From contig CASDPB010000025.1 in NCBI GenBank assembly GCA_949282305.1, positions 1 to 50,864 of the forward strand: a DNA stretch of 50,864 bases, read 5' to 3'. Shown here piece after piece: positions 9,751 to 50,595 of this stretch (positions are counted from its first letter, which is position 1; each line of letters begins with the position of its first letter). The notes under the pieces were generated by a model. The model worked only from the letters and a program-made list of their open reading frames with translations. It did no database searches and had not been told where the DNA came from. The translations under genes were made by a program, and so were the position numbers. The stretch comes from an uncultured Lentisphaeria bacterium (GTDB lineage Bacteria > Verrucomicrobiota > Lentisphaeria > Victivallales > UBA1829).

Positions 9751-10041
9751 TTACTTGAGATTGCGGATCCATTCCACGACAACCTTGCAGGCGTCCGGAT
9801 TGCCGGACGCCATCTGCTCTTCGTAGAAGCCGCAGACCAGTTTCTCAAGCTCGCCGTCCGCCAGTTTATGCCCGACAACTTCGCCGACCACCTTGTTCAG
9901 ATCGTCCTTTGTGAAGCTGTACTTTTCATCCGCCATGATTTTGTCGATCGCGGCTGTCTCCTTGACATCGGCAAGAGCCGCCCTGAAATCCTCATCCGTC
10001 ATCATTCTGACGCAAAACGCCCGTGCAATTTCTGCTGACAT
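9751..10041 (-). CDS. Nif11-like leader peptide family protein
   Basis: A 96-residue acidic soluble protein. Residues of about 5-70 follow the Nif11/nitrile-hydratase-leader pattern seen in RiPP precursors: an early Phe plus TDEDFRAAL, a middle helix, then YSFTKDDLNKVV and KLADGELEKLVCG where the family usually has an EL..V.GG cleavage site. The tail after CG is about 25 residues with one Cys, so it is a poor classical core peptide. AAAGGA lies 8 bases before the ATG. It sits 38 bases after the second CNNM gene and before a strong terminator, so it is the last gene of that operon. No modification enzyme is nearby. It may be a Nif11-domain protein with another role. Confidence 0.55.
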   Translation of the reverse strand: MSAEIARAFCVRMMTDEDFRAALADVKETAAIDKIMADEKYSFTKDDLNKVVGEVVGHKLADGELEKLVCGFYEEQMASGNPDACKVVVEWIRNLK

Positions 10042-10079
10042 TTTCTATTTCCTTTCATTGGTTTGTTTGAGCATCATAA

Positions 10080-11084
10080 TCATTCAAAAAGAAGCGAAGC
10101 CAGATCCTCCGGCTTTACAATTCCGCACTGCCTCCTGTTGCCGTCCAGCACGACAAAAAACAGAATCCGGCGGAACCGCATTTTTTCGATCAGCTCCCCG
10201 AGCTTCAGATTGTCGCTGATAAAATCCAGCGGACGCGCACATGCGGAAACCGGAGTGGTATCCCACAGCGCTTCATCAATTGAATAAATCGCATCATAGA
10301 GGTTGAATATACCACACCATTCGCGGAATTCATCCTTTTTTCCGGAATATTTTGCAGGATATATCGGGATTTTTGTCTCTTTGCATCCGTTGCAGTAGTC
10401 AAACGCCTCGCGGATCGTCATGTCTGAAGGAATGTCATGCACCATATTTTTCGGCGACATGATGTTCTGGATCAGCATACCGGGAATGTCGATCGCCTTG
10501 TCGATAATCGACGCGGTGGCGTCGTCCAGCGCTCCCGAAGACTGGCTTTCCCGCAGATAAAGCCGGAAATTTTCGCGAACGACAACGCCGGGCGGCTTTT
10601 CCTCGCCGTGTTTCTGAAGTTTTGCAGCCAGCGAATTCAGGGAATCCGTAATTTTTGAAAAAATGCGCACCGGGATGAACAGCAGAAGATATGCTGCGTA
10701 AAAGACCCGTATGAAAATGGAACACCGGTCAAACGGCGCCTCCCGGAACCAGTTCTTCGGCACGATTTCGCAGGCAAGCAGAATCACGCTTAAAACGGAG
10801 CTGGTCAGAAACAGCGTCAGGCTCCCGCTGAGATGAAAGCATTCAATGAACTTTTTCGTCATCAGAGACGCCATGACAACGCTGATATTGACTCCGATCA
10901 GCGCCGTGGCAATCATGATCCCCGGATTCTGAAGGAAAAACACCATGATCCTGGCGGATTTCCGACCCGTCTTGGCGGCATGTTCGGCTCGCGGCCTCAT
11001 GACGGAAACCATTCCCGTTTCCATACCGGCAAAGAAGCCCTGCATGCAGATGAAAAAAAGTGCCATGACAAAATAAAAGATCAT
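10080..11084 (-). CDS. CNNM/CorC-family membrane protein (second of pair)
   Basis: A 334-residue inner-membrane protein of the DUF21-CBS family, which includes magnesium/cobalt efflux-linked proteins. About four hydrophobic segments fill the first 140 residues, starting with an N-terminal helix containing FFAGMETG. A CBS pair follows, including IMSPKNMVHDIPSDMTIREA. It lacks the C-terminal CorC_HlyC domain. Its ATG overlaps the stop of the first paralogue (ATGA), and GGAGGGGGG precedes it. Metal specificity cannot be told. Confidence 0.78.
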   Translation of the reverse strand: MIFYFVMALFFICMQGFFAGMETGMVSVMRPRAEHAAKTGRKSARIMVFFLQNPGIMIATALIGVNISVVMASLMTKKFIECFHLSGSLTLFLTSSVLSVILLACEIVPKNWFREAPFDRCSIFIRVFYAAYLLLFIPVRIFSKITDSLNSLAAKLQKHGEEKPPGVVVRENFRLYLRESQSSGALDDATASIIDKAIDIPGMLIQNIMSPKNMVHDIPSDMTIREAFDYCNGCKETKIPIYPAKYSGKKDEFREWCGIFNLYDAIYSIDEALWDTTPVSACARPLDFISDNLKLGELIEKMRFRRILFFVVLDGNRRQCGIVKPEDLASLLFE

Positions 11085-12385
11085 GCCTGTCCCCCCTCCG
11101 GCTGCTCCTCCGGCACGTCGTTGACCGTGACAAGAACCCGCGTGACACGGTTGCGCGAGACGGTTTTTGCAAACAGTGTCACATTGTCAAAAGCCACGGA
11201 GTCCCCCTGCTGCGGAATTGCGCCCAGAAGTTCGCAAAACACGCCGTTGATGGTTTTTGCGCTGAAACGACCGGGCGATACTTTCAGGGAAAGCGCCATT
11301 TTCATGAATTCAAAGGAAGACATTCCGTCAAACAGCCACTGATTTCTTCCGATCTTCAGGAGCTCCCATTCCGCCTGATTGTCCAGTTCCACGGAACGCC
11401 CGGTCAGCTCGGAATAGATGTCTTCCCGCATAATCATTCCGGAAACCGCGCCGTATTCGTCCGCCGCCAGCGCCGCTCCCGCGGATGCTTCCTTCAACGT
11501 GCGCAAAGCCTTCTCCAGAGTCGCCTGCTCCGGAATGAAAATTGTTTTTTTCAACATGCACGATGAAGTGCTCCACGACCTTCGTTCCTCCCGCGGCAGA
11601 CAGAAAAAAGCGCGTGCGGAAAGAATTGCGTCCGCGGTGTCAAGCGAATCGGTATCCGTAACCGGCAGGTATGCCTGACAGCTTTCCCGGATCACCCGGC
11701 AGACCTCCTGCGGCGAAGCGTTTCTGGAAATGAAGTGCAGACTGGCACGCCCGCGCATGACACTTTCCACGCTCTTGCTGCGGAGTGCAAACGTCTCCTT
11801 CATCAGCTTGGCTTCATCGGGTGTGAAGAGCCCCCGCTCGCAGGAAAGATCAATATACGAGAGATATTCCGTCGGCGTCAGCCCCGCCTCCGTCCTGCGT
11901 CCGAGAACGTCCAGGATTTTCCCGCAGATCTTCTCCACCGTAAAAGTCAGAGGATAAAGCAGTTTCCGCATTACGGCAACCGGAGTCGCGACGCAGCGGG
12001 ACCAGGGTTCGCAATAGGCATAGGCAAGAGTCATCGGGCTGACCTCCCCGAACAGAAGCAGGATCACGATACCCGTCACGCCGGAGACAATCAGGGTCAA
12101 TGTCGGATTCAGATGAAAACGGCTGAGAATCGTATCGTTGAGCATCGAAACGCAGCTGTTAACGAACATGTTGCAGAAGATGATGGTAATCAGCGTTCTG
12201 TGATACCCCGTCATCAGCATGTAGATGCGCCGTTCGATGGCGGATGAACTGTCCTTGTAGGAAAGAATTTTCGCACGGCTCAGCGAGAACAGTGACATCT
12301 CCGAACTGGAACAGAATGCCGATATTCCCACTAATAAAATCAACAACAGTATTTCAAAAACTAAAACAAGTGACGCCGAATCCAT
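11081..12385 (-). CDS. CNNM/CorC-family membrane protein with CorC_HlyC domain (first of pair)
   Basis: A 434-residue protein with the full family layout: an N-terminal DUF21 membrane domain (a helix ending ISAFCSSSEMSLFSLSR, then more helices), a CBS pair (from about SVESVMRGR to about SGMIMREDIYSEL), and a CorC_HlyC domain at the C-terminus. The Ser/Glu-rich SSSEM in the first helix corresponds to the conserved ion-pathway region of CNNM proteins. The ATG at 12385 follows GGAG; the frame is open upstream, but MDSASLVLVFEILLL is the natural start. It heads an operon with its shorter paralogue and the Nif11-like gene. Tandem unequal pairs suggest a heteromer. Confidence 0.8.
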   Translation of the reverse strand: MDSASLVLVFEILLLILLVGISAFCSSSEMSLFSLSRAKILSYKDSSSAIERRIYMLMTGYHRTLITIIFCNMFVNSCVSMLNDTILSRFHLNPTLTLIVSGVTGIVILLLFGEVSPMTLAYAYCEPWSRCVATPVAVMRKLLYPLTFTVEKICGKILDVLGRRTEAGLTPTEYLSYIDLSCERGLFTPDEAKLMKETFALRSKSVESVMRGRASLHFISRNASPQEVCRVIRESCQAYLPVTDTDSLDTADAILSARAFFCLPREERRSWSTSSCMLKKTIFIPEQATLEKALRTLKEASAGAALAADEYGAVSGMIMREDIYSELTGRSVELDNQAEWELLKIGRNQWLFDGMSSFEFMKMALSLKVSPGRFSAKTINGVFCELLGAIPQQGDSVAFDNVTLFAKTVSRNRVTRVLVTVNDVPEEQPEGGQA

Positions 12386-39919: not shown

Positions 39920-40870
39920 ATGATCCGGAAGAAATTGTTGACAGCATACTGTCTGAGTTACGGCAATTGGACTGTCATTCCCCGTCAGTGGGCGGAAAGC
40001 TTCGGCGAAATGAGCGATCTTGGATTTGATGCTGTGGCACTGTCCTTCAGTGAAAGTGAAATGCGGTATGCCAGGCGCACATTTGAAATGCAGGTTGCGG
40101 CTGCACATCGGGCGGGAATCAAAGTTTTCGTGATTCCGAGCAGGATCGGAGGGCGTCTTGCCGGGGCTCCTCTCATGGGCAGTTTATGGCTGCATGAGAA
40201 TCCATCGGCATGTCTTCCGGAAAATCCGGGCATCGCGTGCGTCGAATCACCGGAATTCCGGGCATGGAGTCTGGAATTCATCCGGACGCTGGTCCGTGAT
40301 TACGAGGTGGACGGCATTATCTGGGACGAACCGAAAGCAGCGGATTTCGTGACGCGGCATCCTGCCGCGGCTGCCGCACTTGGCGAGGGGTATGGTGTGG
40401 AACACATCTGCCGGAGTTTTGCAGAACTGATCGGAGAGTGGACATCCGCCGCGCGGGAAATCCGTCCGGAACTGATTGTTTCAATCTTCAATATGCCCCA
40501 TACCAGTCCCCTGTTCACCGGTCTATGCGCCGGGCTCCCCGGAATCGACTATGCCGGCTTTGACGGCGGTTTGTCTCTGCAAAGTTACTTTCATGAAAAT
40601 CCAACCAAACATAAGCCCTATCTTATGGAAACCTGGTCCAGGACACGGAAAGAGTGTGCCGAATATCATTGCGGGACATTTGCCCTGATTGAAAATATGC
40701 TTCTTCCCGTGTCGCAGCATGAGACTTTCGCAGGAAATCTGGAATCCTTCCTGAAATCGGCACAGCCGGATCATCTGGCGTGTTATTATTATGCGCATAA
40801 CAACGAAGCACCGGACGAAGCGCAGAGAATCACCATGGATGCCATACACAGACTTTATTTGGACAGATAA
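39920..40870 (+). CDS. Putative glycoside-hydrolase-like TIM-barrel protein
   Basis: A 316-residue soluble protein without signal peptide. The first third has MSDLGFDAVALSFSES and AHRAGIKVFVIPSRIGG, then YEVDGIIWDEPKAADF, then RPELIVSIFNMPH and CYYYAHNNEAPDEA, a strand-helix order fitting a (beta/alpha)8 barrel. The WDEP motif at the end of one strand could hold acid residues, as in family-10-type hydrolases. The exact family is not recognised. Its neighbour is a divergent AraC regulator, so it is probably induced by a carbohydrate. The ribosome site (CAGGGAAA) is weak. Confidence 0.6.
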   Translation: MIRKKLLTAYCLSYGNWTVIPRQWAESFGEMSDLGFDAVALSFSESEMRYARRTFEMQVAAAHRAGIKVFVIPSRIGGRLAGAPLMGSLWLHENPSACLPENPGIACVESPEFRAWSLEFIRTLVRDYEVDGIIWDEPKAADFVTRHPAAAAALGEGYGVEHICRSFAELIGEWTSAAREIRPELIVSIFNMPHTSPLFTGLCAGLPGIDYAGFDGGLSLQSYFHENPTKHKPYLMETWSRTRKECAEYHCGTFALIENMLLPVSQHETFAGNLESFLKSAQPDHLACYYYAHNNEAPDEAQRITMDAIHRLYLDR

Positions 40871-41198
40871 TGGAGATCAGTATGAAACGAGTCAGGCTTC
40901 TCACGCAGGTCAAGTCCCGGATAACAGAAAACTTTCATGTATCTGTTCCTTGCCTTATCCGCAGAACAGGTATGATGCAAACTCTGCATCATGCACATCC
41001 TGAAAAGCGGGGACTTCGGCAGAGGAACTGTTTTCCTTTTTGCATCCCTTCCCGGGCACTCTGAAAAAGAACTGATTTCCCGGTCTTCCGTCCCCGTCGG
41101 CGTAAAATCGGTGTTTTTCTGGAAAAACACTTTGCTTTTGGCGGAATCAATGCTAATTTGATTTGCTCGAAAATGCAACTAAAAAACCGGGAACAGGA
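40871..41198. other. Region before the lipid cluster: hairpins and a doubtful small frame
   Basis: A frame from 40882 to 41064 (60 residues) has TGGAG before its ATG, but the product (KRVRLLTQVKSRI... CFPFCIPSRAL) looks like no known protein. It might be a relic of a pseudopilin leader. Within it ATGATGCA-AACTC-TGCATCAT (40972-40992) is a perfect 8-bp dyad. A second hairpin, GTGTTTTT-CTGG-AAAAACAC (41111-41130), is followed by TTTGCTTTT and may terminate upstream transcription. Confidence 0.35.
41132..41159 (+). promoter_or_regulatory. Candidate promoter of the polyene-like cluster
   Basis: TTGCTT (41132-41137) and TAATTT (41154-41159) are separated by 16 bases and end 39 bases before the acyl carrier protein start. 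The match is moderate. It directly follows the hairpin at 41111-41130, so the hairpin could also affect expression. Confidence 0.35.
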
Positions 41199-41489
41199 AT
41201 GACTAGGGAAGAAATTATAGAAGCCGTCAACAAGACGTTTACTGAGATATTGGAAGTTCCGGCGGAGGATCTCTCTCCGGAAAAAGCCGTTTTCAAAGAT
41301 CTGGGACTCGACAGCCTCGACATGGTGGATCTTATGACAGGGCTGCAGCGCCGGTTCAGAATCTCTCTGCGCCAGAATGAGGAAATCCGGAAAATCGTCA
41401 CGCTCGGAGACATTTACGATTTCTTTGTCAAAATGGAACAGGAACACAGCGGGCAGAAACCTCCTGAACAGAAACAACATAATACCTGA
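41199..41489 (+). CDS. Acyl carrier protein
   Basis: A 96-residue four-helix carrier. GLDSLDMVDL holds the phosphopantetheine serine (Ser39). The helix I pattern MTREEIIEAVNKTFTEIL and helix II-III (LDMVDLMTGLQRRFRI) are typical. The C-terminal tail of about 15 residues (EHSGQKPPEQKQHNT) is hydrophilic and longer than in FabD-type carriers. It is the first gene of the polyene-like cluster and should carry the growing chain. AGGA lies unusually close to the ATG; GGGA about 8 bases upstream may serve instead. Confidence 0.9.
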   Translation: MTREEIIEAVNKTFTEILEVPAEDLSPEKAVFKDLGLDSLDMVDLMTGLQRRFRISLRQNEEIRKIVTLGDIYDFFVKMEQEHSGQKPPEQKQHNT

Positions 41490-41511
41490 GCTGTCCGGAG
41501 GACGAAGCACG

Positions 41512-42255
41512 GTGGTGATTACAATTGCATGTTACCTGCTGATGAGTCTGGTCACAGTGGTTTATTGCCTTCTGGCGGTTTTTCCCCTGGCAGTCGCCAT
41601 CCTGTGCTGCGGTCTCAACCGGAGACGCATCGGGAACATCATGCGCTTTTTCATTCTCTGGTATGGCAGGGCCATCGTCCGCATTGCGCTGCGCCCCTTT
41701 GCCGGAGTGGAATTCGAGGACCGTTCGCCGGAACAGAACAGCGGCATCTTCATCTGCAATCATCGTTCGGCATCCGATCCGTTTCTCGTATCTTCGGTCG
41801 CCATGCGGCGTCCTCCGGCGCAAGCGGTCAACCGCTGGCCCATGCGCCTTCCGTTTTTCGGTTTTTTTGCAAGACTCGGGGAATATCTCGACATCACCTC
41901 AATGAACTATGAACAGGCGAAAGAGCGCGCCGCATATCTGCTGGGACAGCAGGTTCCGCTGTTCGTCTTTCCCGAAGGAACACGTTCCGGCAATCGGGAG
42001 ATCAACCAGTTTCACGGGACATTCTTCCGGATCGCAAAGGAACTCTCCTGCCCGCTGATTCCGGTGGCGATCACGGGCAATGAACGAATTCCGGCGCGGG
42101 ACTACCGCATCACATGCGGCAGAATCCACATCAGAAAACTGCCCCCCGTTCCAATGGAACTCATTGCGGCAATGCCGCCATTTCAGCTGAAGAATCATGT
42201 CCGCAGACTTCTCATGGATGAAACAGCAAAAATGGACGCGGAGAACAACTTATGA
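41512..42255 (+). CDS. PlsC-type 1-acyl-glycerol-phosphate acyltransferase-like enzyme
   Basis: A 247-residue inner-membrane enzyme. Two hydrophobic segments lie in the first 60 residues. The HX4D motif is NHRSASDPF, followed by the second motif FPEGTRSGNREI; VAITGNERIP matches the fourth. In polyene clusters such enzymes transfer the finished chain onto a glycerolipid. The start is GTG at 41512, preceded by GGAGG at 41497-41501 (10-base gap); no ATG lies in frame after the preceding stop. It overlaps the next gene by ATGA. Confidence 0.85.
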   Translation: MVITIACYLLMSLVTVVYCLLAVFPLAVAILCCGLNRRRIGNIMRFFILWYGRAIVRIALRPFAGVEFEDRSPEQNSGIFICNHRSASDPFLVSSVAMRRPPAQAVNRWPMRLPFFGFFARLGEYLDITSMNYEQAKERAAYLLGQQVPLFVFPEGTRSGNREINQFHGTFFRIAKELSCPLIPVAITGNERIPARDYRITCGRIHIRKLPPVPMELIAAMPPFQLKNHVRRLLMDETAKMDAENNL

Positions 42256-43556
42256 AGACTTACCGTTTCAAATTCGACCCCTCGCTGGATTTCCTGCCAC
42301 CGGAGGAACTGCGCGTCATGCAGACCCTGATCCTGCGGGAACATCTTCAGTTCTGCACGGTGCATTCCCCTTATTACAGGCGTCTTTTCGGGAACCGCGA
42401 CTGGAGCAGGTTCACACTTGACCGGCTGCCTGAACTTCCGTTCACCGAAAAATGCGACATTGCAAAAGATCCGGAGGATTTTCAGGCGTCGCCGTGGCGC
42501 AACGTCATGGACGTGGTCTTTTCATCCGGCACCACCGGAACCCCCTGCCGGATTGTCTATACGGCAGGGGACATGGAGCGGCTCGCCTACAATGAACAGT
42601 GCTGTTTCGCCGCTGCGGGGATGACGCCGGACGACAAAGTGCTCCTGACCTGTACTCTGGACCGCTGTTTTGTCGCGGGCATGGCGTATTATCAGGGCGT
42701 CTGCCGCCTGGGAGCCTCCGCAATCCGGAACGGTCTCAATACGCTGGAAAGCCACGCGGAAGTCATCAGGACGCTCCGTCCGAGCATGATCGTCGGCGTT
42801 CCCTCCTTCCTGCGCCATCTCGGAAAACATCTCGGGGAACGCGGCGTCTCCGTCGACAGTGTCCGCGCGCTGATCTGCATCGGGGAACCGGTTCATGATG
42901 AAAAATTCGGTTTTTCCGAACTCGGAGGACAGCTTCGGGAACTCTGGAATGCGAGAATTCATTCCACCTACGCATCCTCGGAAATCGTATCAAGTTTCTG
43001 CGACTGCATCGAATGTTGCGGCGGACACCTCCGCGCCGACCTTGCCATCCTTGAAATCGTGGATGAAAACGGCAATGTCCTTCCTCCCGGTGAAACCGGC
43101 GAGGTGGTCATCACGCCGATGCAGGTCACGGGAATGCCGCTGGTGCGTTTCCGGACGGGCGACATCAGTTTCATGACGAATGAACCCTGCCGGTGCGGGC
43201 GTTTTCTGCCGCGTCTCGGACCGATCCTCGGGCGCAAGGCGCAGATGCTCAAGATACGCGGCACGACACTTTACCCGCAGACTCTGTTTTCCGTGCTTGA
43301 CTCCTCACCGGAAGTCCTGGAATATTATATCGTTGCGACGGGGCATGAACTTTCCGACCGGATCGAAGCATTCGTCGCGCTCAAGGAACCGCATTCAAGT
43401 CTGGAAGCCATATCCGAGCGTCTCAAGGCGCGATGCCGCCTGACGGTTCCCGTCACGGAAGTGCCGATCGACGAGGCGCGGAGCCGGATTTTCTCCGTCT
43501 CCCGCAAACCGGTCCGTTTTATCGACCGCCGCGAAAAATCAAAACTCAACCTTTAA
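42252..43556 (+). CDS. PaaK-like adenylating ligase
   Basis: A 434-residue soluble acid-activating enzyme of the phenylacetate-CoA-ligase branch. The nucleotide loop is FSSGTTGTPCRIVYT; TYASSEIVSSFCDC matches the A5-type motif, RFRTGDISF the A7 motif, and GRKAQMLKIRGTTLYPQ the hinge before the small C-terminal domain. It would adenylate an aryl or other carboxylic acid and load it on coenzyme A or the carrier protein. In aryl-polyene clusters this step is usually done by a shorter AMP-ligase (ApeH). The substrate is unknown; no aromatic ammonia lyase is in the window. Confidence 0.82.
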   Translation: MKTYRFKFDPSLDFLPPEELRVMQTLILREHLQFCTVHSPYYRRLFGNRDWSRFTLDRLPELPFTEKCDIAKDPEDFQASPWRNVMDVVFSSGTTGTPCRIVYTAGDMERLAYNEQCCFAAAGMTPDDKVLLTCTLDRCFVAGMAYYQGVCRLGASAIRNGLNTLESHAEVIRTLRPSMIVGVPSFLRHLGKHLGERGVSVDSVRALICIGEPVHDEKFGFSELGGQLRELWNARIHSTYASSEIVSSFCDCIECCGGHLRADLAILEIVDENGNVLPPGETGEVVITPMQVTGMPLVRFRTGDISFMTNEPCRCGRFLPRLGPILGRKAQMLKIRGTTLYPQTLFSVLDSSPEVLEYYIVATGHELSDRIEAFVALKEPHSSLEAISERLKARCRLTVPVTEVPIDEARSRIFSVSRKPVRFIDRREKSKLNL

Positions 43557-43567
43557 GGAAAACGGCA

Positions 43568-45016
43568 ATGTGCAGTGCGCAGTTCGATTTTACGGATGAG
43601 GAAATCCGCACACTTCCCGAGGGACACCTGCTCTCCATGGAAATTGAGTTTTCGCGCAGATGCAACTACCGCTGTCCCTACTGTTACGCGGCAGGCGATT
43701 ACGATTATTCCGGCGAACTCACGCAGGAGGAAATCCGTTCGGCGCTAAAACAGGCGGCGGAACTGGGCGCACGCAAAATCGTCATTCTCGGCGGCGAGCC
43801 TCTGCTTTATCCGCATCTGCGGGAGATGATCCGTTTCATCCGTTCGCTGGACATGGGGGTGGAAATCTTCACCAACGGTTCGCTGATGACGCGGGAGCTG
43901 GCGGAATTCTTCTTTGCCGAAAACTGCCGCCTCGTCGTCAAGCTCAATACCTTGGACAAGACCCTGCATGACAGGCTTACCGGGCACCGCAACTCGCTTG
44001 AACTGTCGCAGAATGCGCTTCGGCTGCTGCGCGGCGCCGGATATGATTCGCGTCCCGGAATGCTTTGCGCGACAACGGTGCTTTCCTCCGCCAATCTTGA
44101 CGCCGCGCCGGAACTCTGGCGTTATCTGCGCGAACGGAAAACCGCTCCTTATTTCGAGTGTCTCACACCGCAGGGCAGACTGCTGGAGTACCGTTCGCTT
44201 CTGCCGGAGATCATGAAGGTCAGAGAGGTCTTCGAGAAAATCCGGCGGATTGATGCGGAATACGGTTTTCAATGGGAAAGCCAGCCGCCGCTGGTCGGTC
44301 AGAAATGTCTGCGGCATAAATACTCCTGCGTGGTCAGCAGTTTCGGCGACGTCACACCATGTGTGGGCTTGACGGAAGTCATCGGCAATATCCGGAAAAC
44401 GCCGCTGAAAGAAATCCTGACGGGCAGTCTCATCATCCGCAAACTCAAGGATCACCGTGCGAACATCAAATCGCCTTGCAGGGAGTGCGACAAGGCGGAG
44501 GAATGCTACGGCTGCCGCGGCACCGCATGGCAGCTCACGGGAGATTATCTCGCCGCCGATCCGACCTGCTGGCGCAACCTCGATCAACTGGACCGGATCG
44601 ACAGGCTTCCGTTTGACGCCCGGACGCTGATTCCGCACCGTCCGTCGATGGCAATGGCGGAAACGCTTGTCAGGATTACCGATCACGGCGGCGAAACCGT
44701 TTCACGGATTCATGACGACAATCCTTTTCTGGATGAAAACGGCGTGCTTGACCCTGCCGCACTGATCGAACTCGCGGCACAGTCCGCGGCGGCACTGGAC
44801 AGTTTCATGCACGAAAAAAAAGTGAGTCCGGGAATGCTTGCCGGCGTAACGGACTTCGTTCCGGTGCGCCCCGTGCGCAAAGGCGACGACGTCACAATCC
44901 GTTTTGAGAAAGAGGCGGAGTTCAGCCCGTGGCACATCATCCGTTTCGAGGCACTCGACAGGAACAAGGAAAAACTTGCGCAGGGAGTCATGAAGTTATG
45001 TATTCTCGAATCCTGA
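43568..45016 (+). CDS. Radical SAM/SPASM enzyme fused to ApeP-like hotdog dehydratase
   Basis: A 482-residue two-part protein. The radical SAM CxxxCxxC is Cys32-NYR-Cys36-PY-Cys39; GGEPLLYPHL follows. The SPASM-type C-terminal cysteines lie at about GQKCLRHKYSC, VTPCVGL and KSPCRECDKAEECYGCRG, enough for an auxiliary cluster. Residues 347-482 are a separate hotdog domain (LIPHRPSMAMAETL, PAALIELAAQSAAALDSFMH), like ApeP/FabZ 3-hydroxyacyl dehydratases. AAGGA lies 8 bases before the ATG. The radical SAM part may modify the starter acid or the carrier-bound chain; the reaction is unknown. I know of no such fusion in classical aryl-polyene clusters. It overlaps the next gene by 19 bases. Confidence 0.8.
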   Translation: MCSAQFDFTDEEIRTLPEGHLLSMEIEFSRRCNYRCPYCYAAGDYDYSGELTQEEIRSALKQAAELGARKIVILGGEPLLYPHLREMIRFIRSLDMGVEIFTNGSLMTRELAEFFFAENCRLVVKLNTLDKTLHDRLTGHRNSLELSQNALRLLRGAGYDSRPGMLCATTVLSSANLDAAPELWRYLRERKTAPYFECLTPQGRLLEYRSLLPEIMKVREVFEKIRRIDAEYGFQWESQPPLVGQKCLRHKYSCVVSSFGDVTPCVGLTEVIGNIRKTPLKEILTGSLIIRKLKDHRANIKSPCRECDKAEECYGCRGTAWQLTGDYLAADPTCWRNLDQLDRIDRLPFDARTLIPHRPSMAMAETLVRITDHGGETVSRIHDDNPFLDENGVLDPAALIELAAQSAAALDSFMHEKKVSPGMLAGVTDFVPVRPVRKGDDVTIRFEKEAEFSPWHIIRFEALDRNKEKLAQGVMKLCILES

Positions 45017-45621
45017 TCCTCATACTTGCCGTCGCGGCATCTCCGCTCCACCCGCAGGATTCCGCGGAAGAGCTGGTCGCCGCAATTCAGAGCAGAATGA
45101 ATGAGACGAACACGCTTTCCGCGGATTTCATCCAGATCAAGCATCTGAACGTCATGAAGCATGATCTTGTCATCAAAGGGGAAGTCGCCCTCGACAAAAA
45201 GGGGCGCATGGCGTGGCGCGTGCTTTCACCGGTCCGCTATACCTGCATCATCACAGGAAACAGACTTGAACAATGGGACGAGGATTCGGACCAGGTCATA
45301 ACTCTGCATACAGACAGGAATCCTGCGCTCAAGATGCTGGCAACGTCCATGCACGGTTATTTCTCCGGCAATTTCGAGGCGATGAAAAAAGAATTCGACA
45401 TACACAGGGGCGAAAACAGGACACTGTTTCTGACGCCGCGCCGGGAAAGCATCGCCGGACAATTCATACGGAGCATCACGTTTGTTCCGGCAGAGGACTT
45501 TTCCCATATCCGGCAGGTCCGTTTTGTCGAATCCAATTCCGACACTACGGAAATCACATTCCAGAATGTCAAGTTGAACCAGGTATTACCGGAATCGAAA
45601 TGGCAGGCGAAACCACGTTGA
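44998..45621 (+). CDS. LolA-like periplasmic lipid carrier
   Basis: A 207-residue exported protein with a signal peptide (residues 1-20, ending SPLHPQD). The mature part has the LolA fold pattern: TLSADFIQIKHLNVMKHDLVIKGEVALDKKGRMAWRVLSPVRY, then a hydrophobic interior-strand series. In aryl-polyene clusters a LolA-like protein (ApeL) shuttles the lipid across the periplasm. GGGAG precedes the ATG, which lies within the end of the radical SAM gene. The next start overlaps its last 22 bases. Confidence 0.82.
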   Translation: MYSRILILILAVAASPLHPQDSAEELVAAIQSRMNETNTLSADFIQIKHLNVMKHDLVIKGEVALDKKGRMAWRVLSPVRYTCIITGNRLEQWDEDSDQVITLHTDRNPALKMLATSMHGYFSGNFEAMKKEFDIHRGENRTLFLTPRRESIAGQFIRSITFVPAEDFSHIRQVRFVESNSDTTEITFQNVKLNQVLPESKWQAKPR

Positions 45622-48600
45622 CAAAACGCATCTTCGCGGTTCTTGTGATGGCGGCAAGGCACCGTCTCTTTTTGCGTCTTTTCTTTCTTGTCCTGCTTGT
45701 TTTTTCCATTCTTCTGATCGTCCGCACGGACTTCACCAACGATCTTGTGGAAATGCTGCCGGACAATTCCCGCTCCGCGCTTGCGTTTCAGCGGATCGCC
45801 AACAGTCCGATGTTCAACAAAGTCGTTGTTGTTTTCCGGTTGAAACACGGGCTCTTTTCCGGTTCCGGACTGCCGCAGGAAATTGAAAAAACAGCGGAAC
45901 GGCTTAAAGACAATCCTTATATTACACGTGCGGATTACCGCTTCTTTCCGGAATCGCTGAGCGGGGAACTGGCTGGCATTACGGCTTTCCTGCCTCAAAT
46001 TTCCGCGCCGCCGGACTCTTTGTTCACTGCGCAGAACGTGCAGGAAACCGTTCGGAAAATCAGCCGCCGCCTCTATCTGCCGTCCTCCGCCGGGCAGACC
46101 GGCTTTCTGCGTGCGGACCCTTTCAGCCTGAATCTTCCTCTTTACCGGAAACTTGAGGAATTCCGCTCCATTTCCGGCGCATCGTTTCTGCCGGATTATC
46201 CGTATCTTGTCGCAAAGGATGAAAAACACGCAATGATGCTTCTGGAAACGACGGTTCCCGTTTCCGACGCGGCGGGAAGCCGGAAACTGCTGGAGTCTCT
46301 GGATCAGGTTTTTCAAAAACTTCCCCCGGAAATGGAAGCAGAAATCATATCGGGGCATCTTCACGCGGTCAGCAATGAGGCGATTCTGAAAAAAGACATC
46401 GGCACTGTCGGAATCATGTCCGTGATCCTTTTCTCTCTGCTTTTTGTGCTGTTCTACCGCTGCGATTTCCGCAGTCTGGCGATCCCTGTTCTCCCCATGC
46501 TTGCCTCATTGATCGTTCTCGGCGCAATGACACTGATTTTCCGGGAATGCCTTTTCTTCATCGTCGGCATGGGCGGAGTCGTAATCAGTCTCGCGGTGGA
46601 TTACGGCATCCACACCTACGCCGCAGTCAGGAGTCCCCGCTCCCCCCGCAGGAAACTGGCGCGCCTTGCTCCCGCAATCTTTGCCGGAGCCGTCACCTCG
46701 GCGCTGGCATTCGGTCTCTTTCTCTTTTCGAAGATCAACGCCTGCCGCCAGCTCGGTTTCTTCGCCGGGACAAGTCTGCTTCTCAGTTTTTTCCTGATGC
46801 TGTTGCTGCTTCCCGCACTTCTGGGAAAGCGCAGACAGAAAACAAAGATCATGGAACCGTTTCGCTTCCCCGTCCGTCATCCTGTCATCTGCACGGTCGC
46901 ATGGATTTTTGTTTTGATCTTTTCCCTTTTCATTCTTGCAAAACTGGACTTTCAAATGGACATCCGCCGGTTTGACGCCACTCCGCGGGAAATAACGCAG
47001 ATGGAAAAACAGTATGATTCGCTGTTTCAGAGCGGTCCGCGCCCCGCAATGCTTCTCCTGAGCGCTCCCGCCCGTGAACTTGCACTGGAAAAGGCATTGG
47101 AAGCATCGAAAATTCTGCGTTCGGAAAAAATCCCTGTCTTCTCGCCTTCCGATCTTCTGCCGCCCCTCGCTGAAAGGGAAAAAAATCTGGCGCTCTGGCA
47201 TTCCGCCTTGAAAAACGGGACACTCGGGCGGCTGGAAAACGAAATGCGCGAAACAGGCTCAGGATACGGAATGAAAAATGACTTCTTCGCCCCGTTTTTC
47301 AACAGTCTGCGCCTCGGCATCAATACTCCGGCAAATGTTCCGAACCTGTTCCGCCCTGTCGTGGAAAGGCTGATTTCCAAGGATAAGGACGGTCTTCACA
47401 CCTGCGCCATTCTGTTCCCGGATACGCCGCGGAATGTCGCGGCCGTTTCCGAACTGTTCCCGGACGCGCCTGCGGTTTCTCAGGACTCCCTCCCCGAACT
47501 GATGTCCCGCGAGGTTTCGTCCGGTATTCTTTCTCTTGCCCTGATGACCCTTCTCATGGTGGTTGCCGTGGCGCTTCTCTTTTTCCGTTCCATCGTAAAA
47601 GCGGTTCTTGCCCTTCTGCCGGTCTGCGCCGCGCTGCTTCTTACGGGAGCGTTCTTCGCGCTGACGAACATTCCGGCAAGCCTCTCCACGCTGATCGCCG
47701 GAATTATTCTTGCCGGACTGAGCATTGACTACGGCATCTTCATGGTGCACTCGGAATGCGGACGCAGAGACGGCAATGTATTTCATGCGCTGACCCTTTC
47801 CGCCGCGACTTCGGCGGCGGGCGGCGCCACGGTCATTTTCACGACGCACCCCATGCTCCGGGATGCCGGATTCACGCTGATCGTCGGAATTTCCGCGGCA
47901 TGGGCGGCAAGCGTGATTCTGCTTCCGGCTCTGTATCATCTGAAACATGTCGGGAAATTTCTTCCGCTTCTTCTCCTTTCCCTGCTTGCGGGATGCCGGA
48001 CAGAACCGTTTCAATACCCTGAATTCCAGGCTGTTCCGCCTGCATCCGAAGCGGAGGAAAGGATCAACCGTCTGCGCGGAGAAATGCCGCAGAGCTATCT
48101 GGTGGAGGCGGGAGTCGTCATAGAATATTATTTCAAGACCTTTTCCCTGCTCACCCTCGCAAAAATTGATTTGGAGAAGAACGAAATTTCCGTTGCGGGG
48201 CTGACTCCCGCAGGAGCGAAACTTTTCGAACTTCATGGAAAAAACGGAATCGCGGAATCGTTCTGGTGGCTTCCGGATCAGCCCTGGTCCGCGTATGAGA
48301 AAGAGGCGTCGCAGCAGGCGATCCGGGATCTGTTTCATATTTATACCGATCTCCTTCCTCCGGAGCAGTGCCCCGTCACGGAAAAGAACGGGAAATGGGA
48401 AATCTTCTTCGATGAATTCAGAAAAGACGTCAGCACGCGGACAGAATATCTTTTTGCAGGCAGTCCGCCGCTGCCGGTCAGGAAGAAATGCCGCAAACCT
48501 GCCCTCACATGGTTCGGAAAACGCTTCCTCGGCGGAACACCGCTCTGGCAAATTTCCTATTACCGGTATATATTGCAGAACGGCAAATGGTATCCGGCGG

Positions 48601-48674
48601 ACATCGTTCTGGAGAATGAACGGTATTCCTACCGGCTGATCATAAGGACACGAAAAATCATGGAGACACAATGA
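45600..48674 (+). CDS. MMPL/RND exporter fused to DUF3261 lipoprotein
   Basis: A 1024-residue inner-membrane protein. Residues 1-782 are an MMPL/RND transporter with two halves of six helices: TM1 (LFLRLFFLVLLVFSILLIV), ISLAVDYGIHTYAAV in the first half and AGLSIDYGIFMVHSE in the second. After the last helix a positively charged HLKHVGKF leads into LPLLLLSLLAGC, an in-frame lipobox with Cys799, then about 225 residues like DUF3261 (KWEIFFDEFRKD, WYPADIVLENERYSYRL). In usual clusters these are two genes. No in-frame ATG lies near the junction. It should export the polyene lipid towards LolA. The start at 45600 overlaps the LolA gene; an ATG at 45648 is an alternative. Confidence 0.85.
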   Translation: MAGETTLTKRIFAVLVMAARHRLFLRLFFLVLLVFSILLIVRTDFTNDLVEMLPDNSRSALAFQRIANSPMFNKVVVVFRLKHGLFSGSGLPQEIEKTAERLKDNPYITRADYRFFPESLSGELAGITAFLPQISAPPDSLFTAQNVQETVRKISRRLYLPSSAGQTGFLRADPFSLNLPLYRKLEEFRSISGASFLPDYPYLVAKDEKHAMMLLETTVPVSDAAGSRKLLESLDQVFQKLPPEMEAEIISGHLHAVSNEAILKKDIGTVGIMSVILFSLLFVLFYRCDFRSLAIPVLPMLASLIVLGAMTLIFRECLFFIVGMGGVVISLAVDYGIHTYAAVRSPRSPRRKLARLAPAIFAGAVTSALAFGLFLFSKINACRQLGFFAGTSLLLSFFLMLLLLPALLGKRRQKTKIMEPFRFPVRHPVICTVAWIFVLIFSLFILAKLDFQMDIRRFDATPREITQMEKQYDSLFQSGPRPAMLLLSAPARELALEKALEASKILRSEKIPVFSPSDLLPPLAEREKNLALWHSALKNGTLGRLENEMRETGSGYGMKNDFFAPFFNSLRLGINTPANVPNLFRPVVERLISKDKDGLHTCAILFPDTPRNVAAVSELFPDAPAVSQDSLPELMSREVSSGILSLALMTLLMVVAVALLFFRSIVKAVLALLPVCAALLLTGAFFALTNIPASLSTLIAGIILAGLSIDYGIFMVHSECGRRDGNVFHALTLSAATSAAGGATVIFTTHPMLRDAGFTLIVGISAAWAASVILLPALYHLKHVGKFLPLLLLSLLAGCRTEPFQYPEFQAVPPASEAEERINRLRGEMPQSYLVEAGVVIEYYFKTFSLLTLAKIDLEKNEISVAGLTPAGAKLFELHGKNGIAESFWWLPDQPWSAYEKEASQQAIRDLFHIYTDLLPPEQCPVTEKNGKWEIFFDEFRKDVSTRTEYLFAGSPPLPVRKKCRKPALTWFGKRFLGGTPLWQISYYRYILQNGKWYPADIVLENERYSYRLIIRTRKIMETQ

Positions 48675-49036
48675 GCATCCGGTCTGAAATACTTCATCAT
48701 CTGAATGTAAACTCCCATGCGGAAACACGGGAAATTACGGGCACAATCACCCTGCCCGTCTCTTTTTCCGGATTCCGGGGGCATTTTCCGCAGAATCCGA
48801 TTCTGCCCGGAGTCTGTGAAATCATGATCCTGAAAGAACTGCTCCGGCAGGGCGCCGGAATCCATGCGGATCATGCGGAAATCAGGAACGCGAAGTTCTT
48901 CGCACCCGCCGGAGCGGATGAGGTTCTGGAACTTTCCTGCACGATCAGTCAAAATACCGCATCCTGCAGAATCATGTCCGGAGAAAAGAAAATCTGCACC
49001 CTGAAACTCTCATGGGAGAAACACAATGAGGCGTAA
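48671..49036 (+). CDS. ApeI-like hotdog dehydratase
   Basis: A 121-residue soluble protein. FRGHFPQNPILPGVCEI is the FabA/FabZ-type active-site loop with the catalytic His, and the rest matches one hotdog domain. With the ApeP-like domain of the radical SAM fusion it would provide the two dehydratases found in aryl-polyene pathways, giving conjugated double bonds. Its ATG overlaps the preceding stop (ATGA), and its end overlaps the thioesterase start by 11 bases. Confidence 0.85.
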   Translation: MSIRSEILHHLNVNSHAETREITGTITLPVSFSGFRGHFPQNPILPGVCEIMILKELLRQGAGIHADHAEIRNAKFFAPAGADEVLELSCTISQNTASCRIMSGEKKICTLKLSWEKHNEA

Positions 49037-49505
49037 AAAACATTATTTTGAATCCCCGCCGGATAGTCCGCCGCCGATTACGGCGGAAATTCAGAGGAGA
49101 CTGCGTTTCAGCGACACGGACCCGCTCAGGATCGCATGGCACGGCCGCTATCCGCTGTTCTTTGAAGAGGCGCAGACGGAACTCGGGCACAAATGCGGGC
49201 TGACTTATGCGGCTTATCAGCAATCCGGAATCGGCGCACCCATCGCGCAAATGCACATCGACTATTTCGAGCCGCTGCGCCTGGACGATATTTTTACAGT
49301 CAAAGCATCGCTTTTCTGGAACGAGGGCGCGCGGCTGAACACGGAATATGAAATCACGGCTTCGGGCGGCAGACTCATCTGCACCGGTTATACGGTTCAG
49401 ATGTTCATCCGCCTTGAGACAGGAGAGGCGCTCTGGCTGAACCCGCCGGTCTGGGAGGAGTGCCGCGAACGCTGGCGCAGAGGAGAATTCCATGTCGGAA
49501 CATGA
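49026..49505 (+). CDS. 4HBT-family acyl thioesterase
   Basis: A 159-residue hotdog thioesterase of the YbgC/4-hydroxybenzoyl-CoA type. RFSDTDPLRIAWHGRYPLFFEEA matches the family active-site helix with the catalytic Asp. It would release the acyl product or edit chains on the carrier protein. Aryl-polyene clusters carry a comparable enzyme. It overlaps both neighbouring genes, by 11 and 14 bases. Confidence 0.85.
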   Translation: MRRKKHYFESPPDSPPPITAEIQRRLRFSDTDPLRIAWHGRYPLFFEEAQTELGHKCGLTYAAYQQSGIGAPIAQMHIDYFEPLRLDDIFTVKASLFWNEGARLNTEYEITASGGRLICTGYTVQMFIRLETGEALWLNPPVWEECRERWRRGEFHVGT

Positions 49506-50595
49506 CCCGGTCATCGTTGCCTCCGAGCTCGTAACCGGATACGGTTTCGGGGAAAAACTCTGCTGGGAGGGATTGCTTTCCGGCAGACACGCCTTCCGTG
49601 AAATCGAACGTTTCGACGCATCGAAAATGCGTTCAAAACTTGCGGCGACGGTTCCCGGATTATCCGCGGAACACGGGCATTCCCTGCTGGAACCGATGTT
49701 TGACTTTCTGCGTCCGCATGTCCCGAAGACATACGGCAGAACAGCACTTTTTCTTGCAAGCACAGTCGGAGAAATTGATCTGCTTGAGACTGCGGAACAG
49801 GACACACTTCATTCTCTGCTTCAGAAAGCGCAGACGGTGTTCCGGCTCGGAAACGGGCGGCTCGTTTCCGCCGCCTGCGCCTCATCCAATGTTGCACTGG
49901 CACGGGCGGGAGCACTCATACGAAGCGGCAGGCTGGACACTGCCGTAATTGTCGGAGCGGATCTTGTCAGTGAATTCGTCTGCTCCGGGTTCTCCTCGCT
50001 TGAGGCAATGTCTCCGACGCTGGCGCGTCCTTACGACAGACATCGCGACGGCCTCATCATGGGTGAGGCGGCGGGCGTCATTGTCCTTGCCTCGGCACAG
50101 ACTGCGAAAATCTGCCATCTGGAACCGAAAGCCCGTCTGAGCGGCTGGGGCATGAGCACGGATGCGCTTCATATCACGGCGCCGGTTCACGACGGGAGGA
50201 TGCTTGTCCGTGCAGTCCGGCAGGCGCTCGGGGAAACTTCACCGGAAGAAATCGGATGCGTAATCGGGCACGGAACCGGAACCAGTTACAACGATGAAGC
50301 GGAAATCAATGCCTTGAACGCGGTGTTCCCCTCTCCGCCGCCTCTCGTCTCGGCAAAAGGCGGCTGCGGGCACACTCTGGGCGCCGCGGGAATCATCCAG
50401 GCGTGTATGGCGCTTCATATCCTTGACAGCGGCATACTGTTTCCGCAGACAAACCTGCTGGAACCGGAACCTGCCGCGGCTGAAATGGTTTCAGGCGGAA
50501 TGCAGACCGTGAAGATTCCACGCCTTCTGTCCATGAATTCCGGATTCGGCGGGCTGAATGCCGTATTGATGATTGAAGCTCCTGCCCATCCCTGA
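49492..50595 (+). CDS. Beta-ketoacyl-ACP synthase (ketosynthase)
   Basis: A 367-residue condensing enzyme with complete triad: Cys129 in VSAACASSN, His260 in IGHGTGTSYNDEAE and His294 in KGGCGHTLGAAG, with Lys289 conserved. It would elongate the polyene with malonyl units. It is shorter than FabF by about 45 residues, mainly at the N-terminus, as in cluster ketosynthases of the ApeO type. It is the last recognised gene of the unit. Only one ketosynthase lies here, while aryl-polyene clusters usually contain two or three. Confidence 0.9.
   Translation: MSEHDPVIVASELVTGYGFGEKLCWEGLLSGRHAFREIERFDASKMRSKLAATVPGLSAEHGHSLLEPMFDFLRPHVPKTYGRTALFLASTVGEIDLLETAEQDTLHSLLQKAQTVFRLGNGRLVSAACASSNVALARAGALIRSGRLDTAVIVGADLVSEFVCSGFSSLEAMSPTLARPYDRHRDGLIMGEAAGVIVLASAQTAKICHLEPKARLSGWGMSTDALHITAPVHDGRMLVRAVRQALGETSPEEIGCVIGHGTGTSYNDEAEINALNAVFPSPPPLVSAKGGCGHTLGAAGIIQACMALHILDSGILFPQTNLLEPEPAAAEMVSGGMQTVKIPRLLSMNSGFGGLNAVLMIEAPAHP

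Follow-up and report, generated by a model that had tools for sequence, protein, structure and literature searches.

The dehydratase of aryl polyene (APE) biosynthesis is a heterodimer of ApeI and ApeP with a single dehydratase site (PMC8041823). The nearest solved relative of the hotdog domain described here is the ApeP subunit of the Xenorhabdus doucetiae ApeI:ApeP complex (PDB 6qsr), in which, as in our protein, phenylalanine replaces the catalytic histidine, the glutamate is kept, and an ApeI-like partner is encoded in the cluster. In described APE clusters, ApeP stands alone and a radical SAM enzyme is missing. Acinetobacter baumannii offers a counterpart in which a dehydratase half is likewise joined to an enzyme of its own pathway, but the half concerned is ApeI and the partner is the starter-loading ligase ApeH (PMC8041823). 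The literature searched yielded no example of a radical SAM enzyme that acts on type II polyene chains. To our knowledge, none of the SPASM enzymes of the AhbD, NirJ, PqqE, SkfB, and anSME types, with which the present protein shares its core, its seven-cysteine SPASM pattern, and its fold, is fused to a hotdog domain or an acyl carrier protein (ACP).

The window analyzed here is the whole of a 50,864-nucleotide contig (C25) from an uncultured Lentisphaeria bacterium, and it encodes an ApeP that carries an N-terminal radical SAM/SPASM part. The 482-residue protein is read from a single uninterrupted frame (43568–45016, + strand) whose ATG lies right behind a ligase gene. It comprises a radical SAM core (residues 26–161; 43643–44050, +; Pfam PF04055, E 5e-24) with the motif C32xxxC36xxC39, a SPASM domain (residues 247–334; 44306–44569, +; PF13186, E 3e-9, matched at 247–308) with the pattern C-x17-C ... 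CX2CX5CX2C ... C, and an ApeP-like hotdog domain (residues about 347–482; 44606–45013, +). The iron-binding cysteines number ten in all, i.e., those of the CX3CX2C motif and seven in the SPASM domain (C247, C265, C304, C307, C313, C316, and C334), and each is cysteine in 60 of 60 aligned sequences; the last SPASM spacing is CX2C, in contrast to the textbook CX3C. With this motif and the full SPASM cysteine set, the protein can be classed as a radical SAM/SPASM enzyme, and its SPASM domain probably holds two auxiliary Fe-S clusters. The junction between the radical SAM and hotdog parts is short, with 1–7 residues between the matches of our in-house profiles.

The identity of the hotdog domain was established through its family, by profile match and residue counts, and from a structural model. 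By itself, the window protein matches no Pfam hotdog family, and it is not among the 30 of 58 family members that match the Pfam ApeP-like family (PF22817). A profile built from the 58 members finds ApeP of Xenorhabdus (6qsr_B) with an E-value of 6e-17, whereas the best FabZ reaches 1e-8. The full-length protein is predicted by AlphaFold2 with a pLDDT of 93 and a pTM of 0.90, and the hotdog on its own with a pLDDT of 94.5; a Foldseek search of the PDB with the hotdog model returns FabZ and ApeI:P as top matches, with 6qsr_B in second rank at an E-value equal to that of the first. The 482-codon frame, Pfam, the profile, and the model therefore agree with what a sequence-only reading of this DNA had proposed, namely radical SAM and SPASM cysteines followed by a hotdog domain in one frame, and the domain pair is recovered by HMM searches, radical SAM and SPASM through Pfam and the ApeP-like hotdog through the family profile.

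The radical SAM half belongs to none of the characterized SPASM equivalog families. All curated ones score far below their cut-offs, the closest being AhbD, NirJ, and PqqE at 87–111 bits (the best, AhbD, has a cut-off of 500 and scores 111 bits). The folds in the PDB nearest to the whole-protein model are those of the SPASM maturases SkfB and SuiB and of the sulfatase activator anSME. As SkfB and SuiB mature ribosomal peptides (RiPPs), the radical SAM half might, like many SPASM enzymes, be a peptide or protein maturase that modifies, for example, the ACP or another protein of the cluster. However, no recurring precursor-peptide gene was found in the conserved operon among frames of at least 60 amino acids, and the gene setting is one of lipid or polyene assembly; we consider a maturase function very unlikely.

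The fusion is not peculiar to this assembly. A scan of public genomes, seeded with two SPASM peptides and not with the hotdog, found 352 relatives, the best 80 of which were analyzed. In this set, whose ranking favors full-length matches, both domains lie in a single frame at 79 of 80 loci from independent genomes, and the one exception (L142) is cut by its contig edge. A sequencing or assembly error that joins two frames, which the sequence-only reading had itself raised as a concern, is thereby ruled out. Full-length homologues with 42–61% identity occur throughout the order and the class. The architecture recurs across Lentisphaerota and Verrucomicrobiota, where a comparison had been proposed, and in further phyla and families: Kiritimatiellota, Nitrospirota, Omnitrophota, Geobacteraceae, Desulfobacteraceae, Brocadiaceae, and a member of the Bacteroidales; the fusion-bearing phyla are many and mostly anaerobic. 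The related concern that relatives might carry the two genes separately is justified in part, as in L209 the radical SAM and hotdog parts are separate genes within one operon, yet the fusion recurs well beyond this assembly. Two apparent elaborations of the fusion were rejected. The extra N-terminal residues that suggested a ligase-radical SAM-ApeP triple fusion in L147, L131, L097, and L148 stem from an overlapping frame that runs out of the ligase gene, and the candidate second fusion gene in L155 encodes an ordinary 465-residue radical SAM protein without a hotdog.

The fused hotdog domain contains one half of a dehydratase active site. The catalytic glutamate (E401 in the window protein) is present in 60 of 60 sequences, and Q405 is also invariant, while the position of the catalytic histidine is occupied by phenylalanine in 57 of 60 (F387 in the window protein). 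The histidine is found in another protein of the cluster, an ApeI/FabZ-like dehydratase half (48671–49036, +; ApeI-like and FabA/FabZ matches, residue counts) with a catalytic histidine, H38, and methionine at the acid position 14 residues further on. Among the ApeI proteins of the conserved operons, the histidine is present in 50 of 50 and the acid position is variable, being mostly Gln, Glu, Leu, Ser, or Ile. The fused domain thus has the characters of an ApeP subunit: it is nearest to ApeP, it keeps the acid, it misses the histidine, and the histidine is found in ApeI. From these residue patterns and by analogy with the known ApeI:ApeP, we infer that E401 of the fused ApeP and the histidine of the window ApeI, its predicted partner, would form one composite dehydratase site, which would introduce every double bond into the polyenoyl-ACP as it grows. 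The earlier description of a complete hotdog domain is right for the fold but not for the active site, which is present in half only (glutamate without histidine); dehydration by this domain alone can therefore not be assumed.

The surrounding genes are those of an aryl polyene/flexirubin cluster: ketosynthase (KS), ACP, ApeI/ApeP, thioesterase, LolA, RND exporter, DUF3261, and starter ligase. All lie on the + strand. Upstream of the fusion are the ACP (41163–41489; PF00550), a lysophospholipid-type acyltransferase (41377–42255; PF01553; an open frame whose true start is probably later), and, immediately before it, a PaaK/FlxY-like acyl ligase (42252–43556). Downstream are a LolA-like periplasmic carrier (44998–45621; PF03548), an MMPL/RND exporter with a C-terminal DUF3261 (LolB-like) part (45600–48674; PF03176, PF11659, and in-house profiles), ApeI, a 4HBT-type thioesterase (49026–49505; PF13279), and a ketosynthase (49492–50595; PF02801, PF00109), beyond which the contig ends after 269 bases. 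The ligase and LolA score best against flexirubin models (NCBIfam FlxY_rubin, 377 bits; LolA2_flexi, 104 bits), but both scores are below the curated cut-offs (520 and 125, respectively). Further differences from flexirubin clusters are the presence of radical SAM enzymes and the failure to find an aromatic ammonia lyase (PF00221) in this genome (n = 1). The setting is of the aryl polyene type without a stand-alone ApeP in the cluster, as had been suggested from the sequence, and the radical SAM enzyme is an addition to the gene complement of such clusters.

The order ACP-acyltransferase-ligase-fusion-LolA-MMPL-ApeI-thioesterase-KS is kept in Lentisphaerota, Nitrospirota, Omnitrophota, Geobacteraceae, and others. 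In relatives, the operon extends further: upstream it has a KR, a CrtI-like FAD enzyme, and another KS, none of which is in the window, and downstream it encodes a CLF-like protein, two proteins of the B12-radical SAM type, and a GT2/DUF2062 protein. A second lipid locus, on contig C128 of the same genome (L217:10688–19441), has genes for a CLF-like protein, a TIGR04072 B12-radical SAM protein, a GT2/DUF2062 protein, an acyltransferase, a ketosynthase, and an ANL ligase. In the window, a 316-residue open frame without a Pfam match (39920–40870, +) lies between an AraC-like frame and the polyene cluster.

Natural variants show that the radical SAM part can be separated from the rest of the system. 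In L060, L062, L063, and L072, the CX3CX2C motif has been lost, whereas SPASM, hotdog, and ligase are retained, so that the ligase and the radical step are not strictly tied to each other. Genus g9 and genome G257 have the hotdog alone, without the radical SAM part and without the ligase. At the anammox-type loci L198–L201, L203, L204, and L211, the radical SAM enzyme is unfused and a FabZ-type dehydratase is located beside it, and in L202 (genome G270; 9905–11302, +) the same radical SAM/SPASM part is followed by a C-terminal ACP domain (PF00550, E 8e-10) in place of the hotdog. A tree of the hotdog domains puts the g9 and degenerate forms inside the fused clade, which identifies them as losses. 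The hotdog is therefore the constant part of these polyene-type operons, and the radical SAM function is one that can be removed. Another ANL ligase is encoded close to the radical SAM-ACP fusion gene of L202. In genome G013, the cluster copy (L060) lacks the motif, and an intact stand-alone radical SAM/SPASM gene (L059:9290–10530, +) is found away from the PKS genes; the radical SAM and cluster functions seem to have parted in this genome.

These variants bear directly on the earlier proposal that the radical step and dehydration form a single, directly coupled reaction on a shared intermediate. Such coupling could account for a one-frame fusion with a short junction in many phyla, and the pTM of 0.90 suggests a fixed arrangement of the domains. 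However, the hotdog is half of a dehydratase site that would need ApeI, and one function is held without the other where the motif is lost and the hotdog kept, where the hotdog occurs alone, and where, in anammox genomes, the radical SAM enzyme stands unfused beside a FabZ. Moreover, the ApeI-ligase fusions show that a fusion by itself does not imply coupled chemistry (PMC8041823). Direct coupling is thus not favored, the two steps being separable, and we regard it as improbable. Separability, together with the ACP fusion, is better explained by tailoring of a carrier-bound chain.

The supply of the starter unit could point to a different role. Chorismate lyase (UbiC, PF04345) was found in 0 of 198 genomes of the class; with no aromatic ammonia lyase found in this genome either, the customary sources of APE and flexirubin starters were not detected. 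The radical SAM half could make or modify a free starter acid, aromatic or amino acid, before loading, and the fusion to ApeP would merely keep the proteins together or in equal amounts. This would agree with the absence of these lyases, with a ligase directly upstream in nearly all fused loci (carried by 49 of the 52 long ones), and with g9 and G257, which lack the ligase along with the whole radical SAM protein. On the other hand, four relatives that have lost the radical motif still keep the ligase, and the radical SAM-ACP fusion of G270 points to a carrier-bound substrate, which makes a free substrate rather unlikely. A starter route from phenylacetate has been described for the celluxanthenes, arylpolyenes of anaerobes (PMC12144888). 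The celluxanthene cluster was considered as a match to the present one and rejected, as its PKS is of the iterative type I and no radical SAM enzyme is named in the main text of that report.

In our best reading, the locus encodes an aryl-polyene-type synthase of a known kind, here with an added radical tailoring domain. With a probability that we put at about 0.6, the fusion protein serves as the ApeP subunit in a type II (aryl-)polyene synthase, and its N-terminal radical SAM/SPASM part tailors the ACP-bound acyl or polyene chain, to which it is brought by the ApeP domain. The ApeP domain would hold the radical SAM half beside the ACP as it shuttles through the dehydratase; SAM and the Fe-S cluster would then abstract a hydrogen from the acyl group on the carrier protein, be it the ligase-loaded starter or the chain, and the SPASM clusters could accept the electron. 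The reaction may be an oxidation or the formation of a C-C bond, either of which would suit a SPASM enzyme, and would be a tailoring step dispensable for chain assembly. The thioesterase, acyltransferase, LolA, and MMPL proteins would release the product, attach it, and export it to the outer membrane. An action near carrier-bound chains, as the sequence-only reading had envisaged, is supported by the fusion to an ACP-handling dehydratase subunit and by the radical SAM-ACP fusion of G270, with the ApeH-ApeI fusion of Acinetobacter as a precedent, and its suggestion of new chemistry for the radical step is plausible. The radical SAM families closest by sequence (AhbD, NirJ, and PqqE), however, do not act on acyl-ACP, which speaks against tailoring of the bound chain. 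Further points against this reading are that the degenerate forms retain the ligase, that the window protein by itself reaches no Pfam hotdog family, and that the KR, the FAD enzyme, and the second KS known from relatives lie outside the window.

The most interesting part of the finding is its bearing on ladderane biosynthesis. A radical SAM enzyme of the same type is located in the cluster proposed for ladderanes in Kuenenia (kuste3352–3335; PMC2649909). Our locus L200, from a 4.4-Mb hydrazine-synthase-positive genome, contains (L200:3894–20000), in this order, KS, an odd KS, a 357-residue protein, KS, a CLF-like protein, the ligase, the radical SAM enzyme, TIGR04072, KR, ACP, FabZ, a methyltransferase, MMPL, an FAD enzyme, and a GT. 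It matches the published kuste3349–3335 list position by position, kuste3337 being missing from that list (PMC4790861), and the match includes the ligase kuste3344, the radical SAM enzyme kuste3343, and the B12-radical SAM enzyme kuste3342; we infer that the genome is that of a Kuenenia. The ligase, radical SAM, KR, MMPL, and FAD genes of L200 are recognized by profiles from aryl-polyene-type operons. PKS searches in Kuenenia have been reported to find none (PMC4790861). Synteny with Desulfotalea that includes these radical SAM enzymes had already been seen by Rattray et al.; in the parts of their paper examined, we found no mention of a fused dehydratase or of aryl polyenes (PMC2649909).

In other phyla, the fusion links kuste3343 of the ladderane cluster to an APE dehydratase subunit, which suggests a relationship between the candidate ladderane operon and synthases of all-trans polyenes (APE type). 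Anammox bacteria are generally known to contain ladderanes. Of 42 hydrazine-synthase-positive genomes, many of which may be incomplete, only 5 carry the radical SAM enzyme, and on this count a kuste3343-type enzyme is unlikely to be a universal ladderane enzyme; two further genomes without a hydrazine-synthase match carry the same anammox-type operon. A stand-alone hotdog near the anammox radical SAM gene was considered as a split ApeP (a "Rosetta stone") and rejected, as its sequence is that of a FabZ possessing both the histidine and the glutamate.

It may be asked whether the radical SAM half forms C-C bonds in the polyene chain in a ladderane-related manner, its anammox orthologue kuste3343 doing so on an APE-type polyene. 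The gene order of L200 would agree with this, as the orthologue lies between the ligase and the TIGR04072 B12-radical SAM gene, and so would the occurrence of TIGR04072 in the present genome (contig C128, 469 bits) and of its relatives in 30 of the 52 longer fused loci. Nevertheless, Desulfotalea shares the cluster and made no detectable ladderanes (PMC2649909), and the low count among the hydrazine-synthase-positive genomes also argues against such a reaction, which we hold to be highly improbable. Ladderane production by the present organism is likewise not favored, and in the literature examined no ladderanes are reported from bacteria with the fused form. The window does not have the proposed ladderane gene order; the ligase, radical SAM enzyme, ACP, and MMPL are in common, but ApeI/ApeP replaces FabZ, LolA is added, and TIGR04072 is on another contig. 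Conversely, the anammox loci have an unfused radical SAM enzyme, FabZ in place of an ApeI/ApeP-like pair, and no LolA that we could see. A wider proposal, which we consider unlikely on balance, is that all these systems belong to one oxygen-independent polyene class in which half of a dehydratase delivers a SPASM enzyme to the ACP-bound chain, with kuste3349–3335 as a derived APE-type member and ladderanes made from an APE-like polyene. In any case, the occurrence of the same radical enzyme in the proposed anammox ladderane cluster provides a new way to test the role of that cluster, and the link between ladderanes and aryl polyenes is made testable by two cultured carriers of the fused operon, Victivallis vadensis DSM 14823 and Oligosphaera ethanolica DSM 24202.
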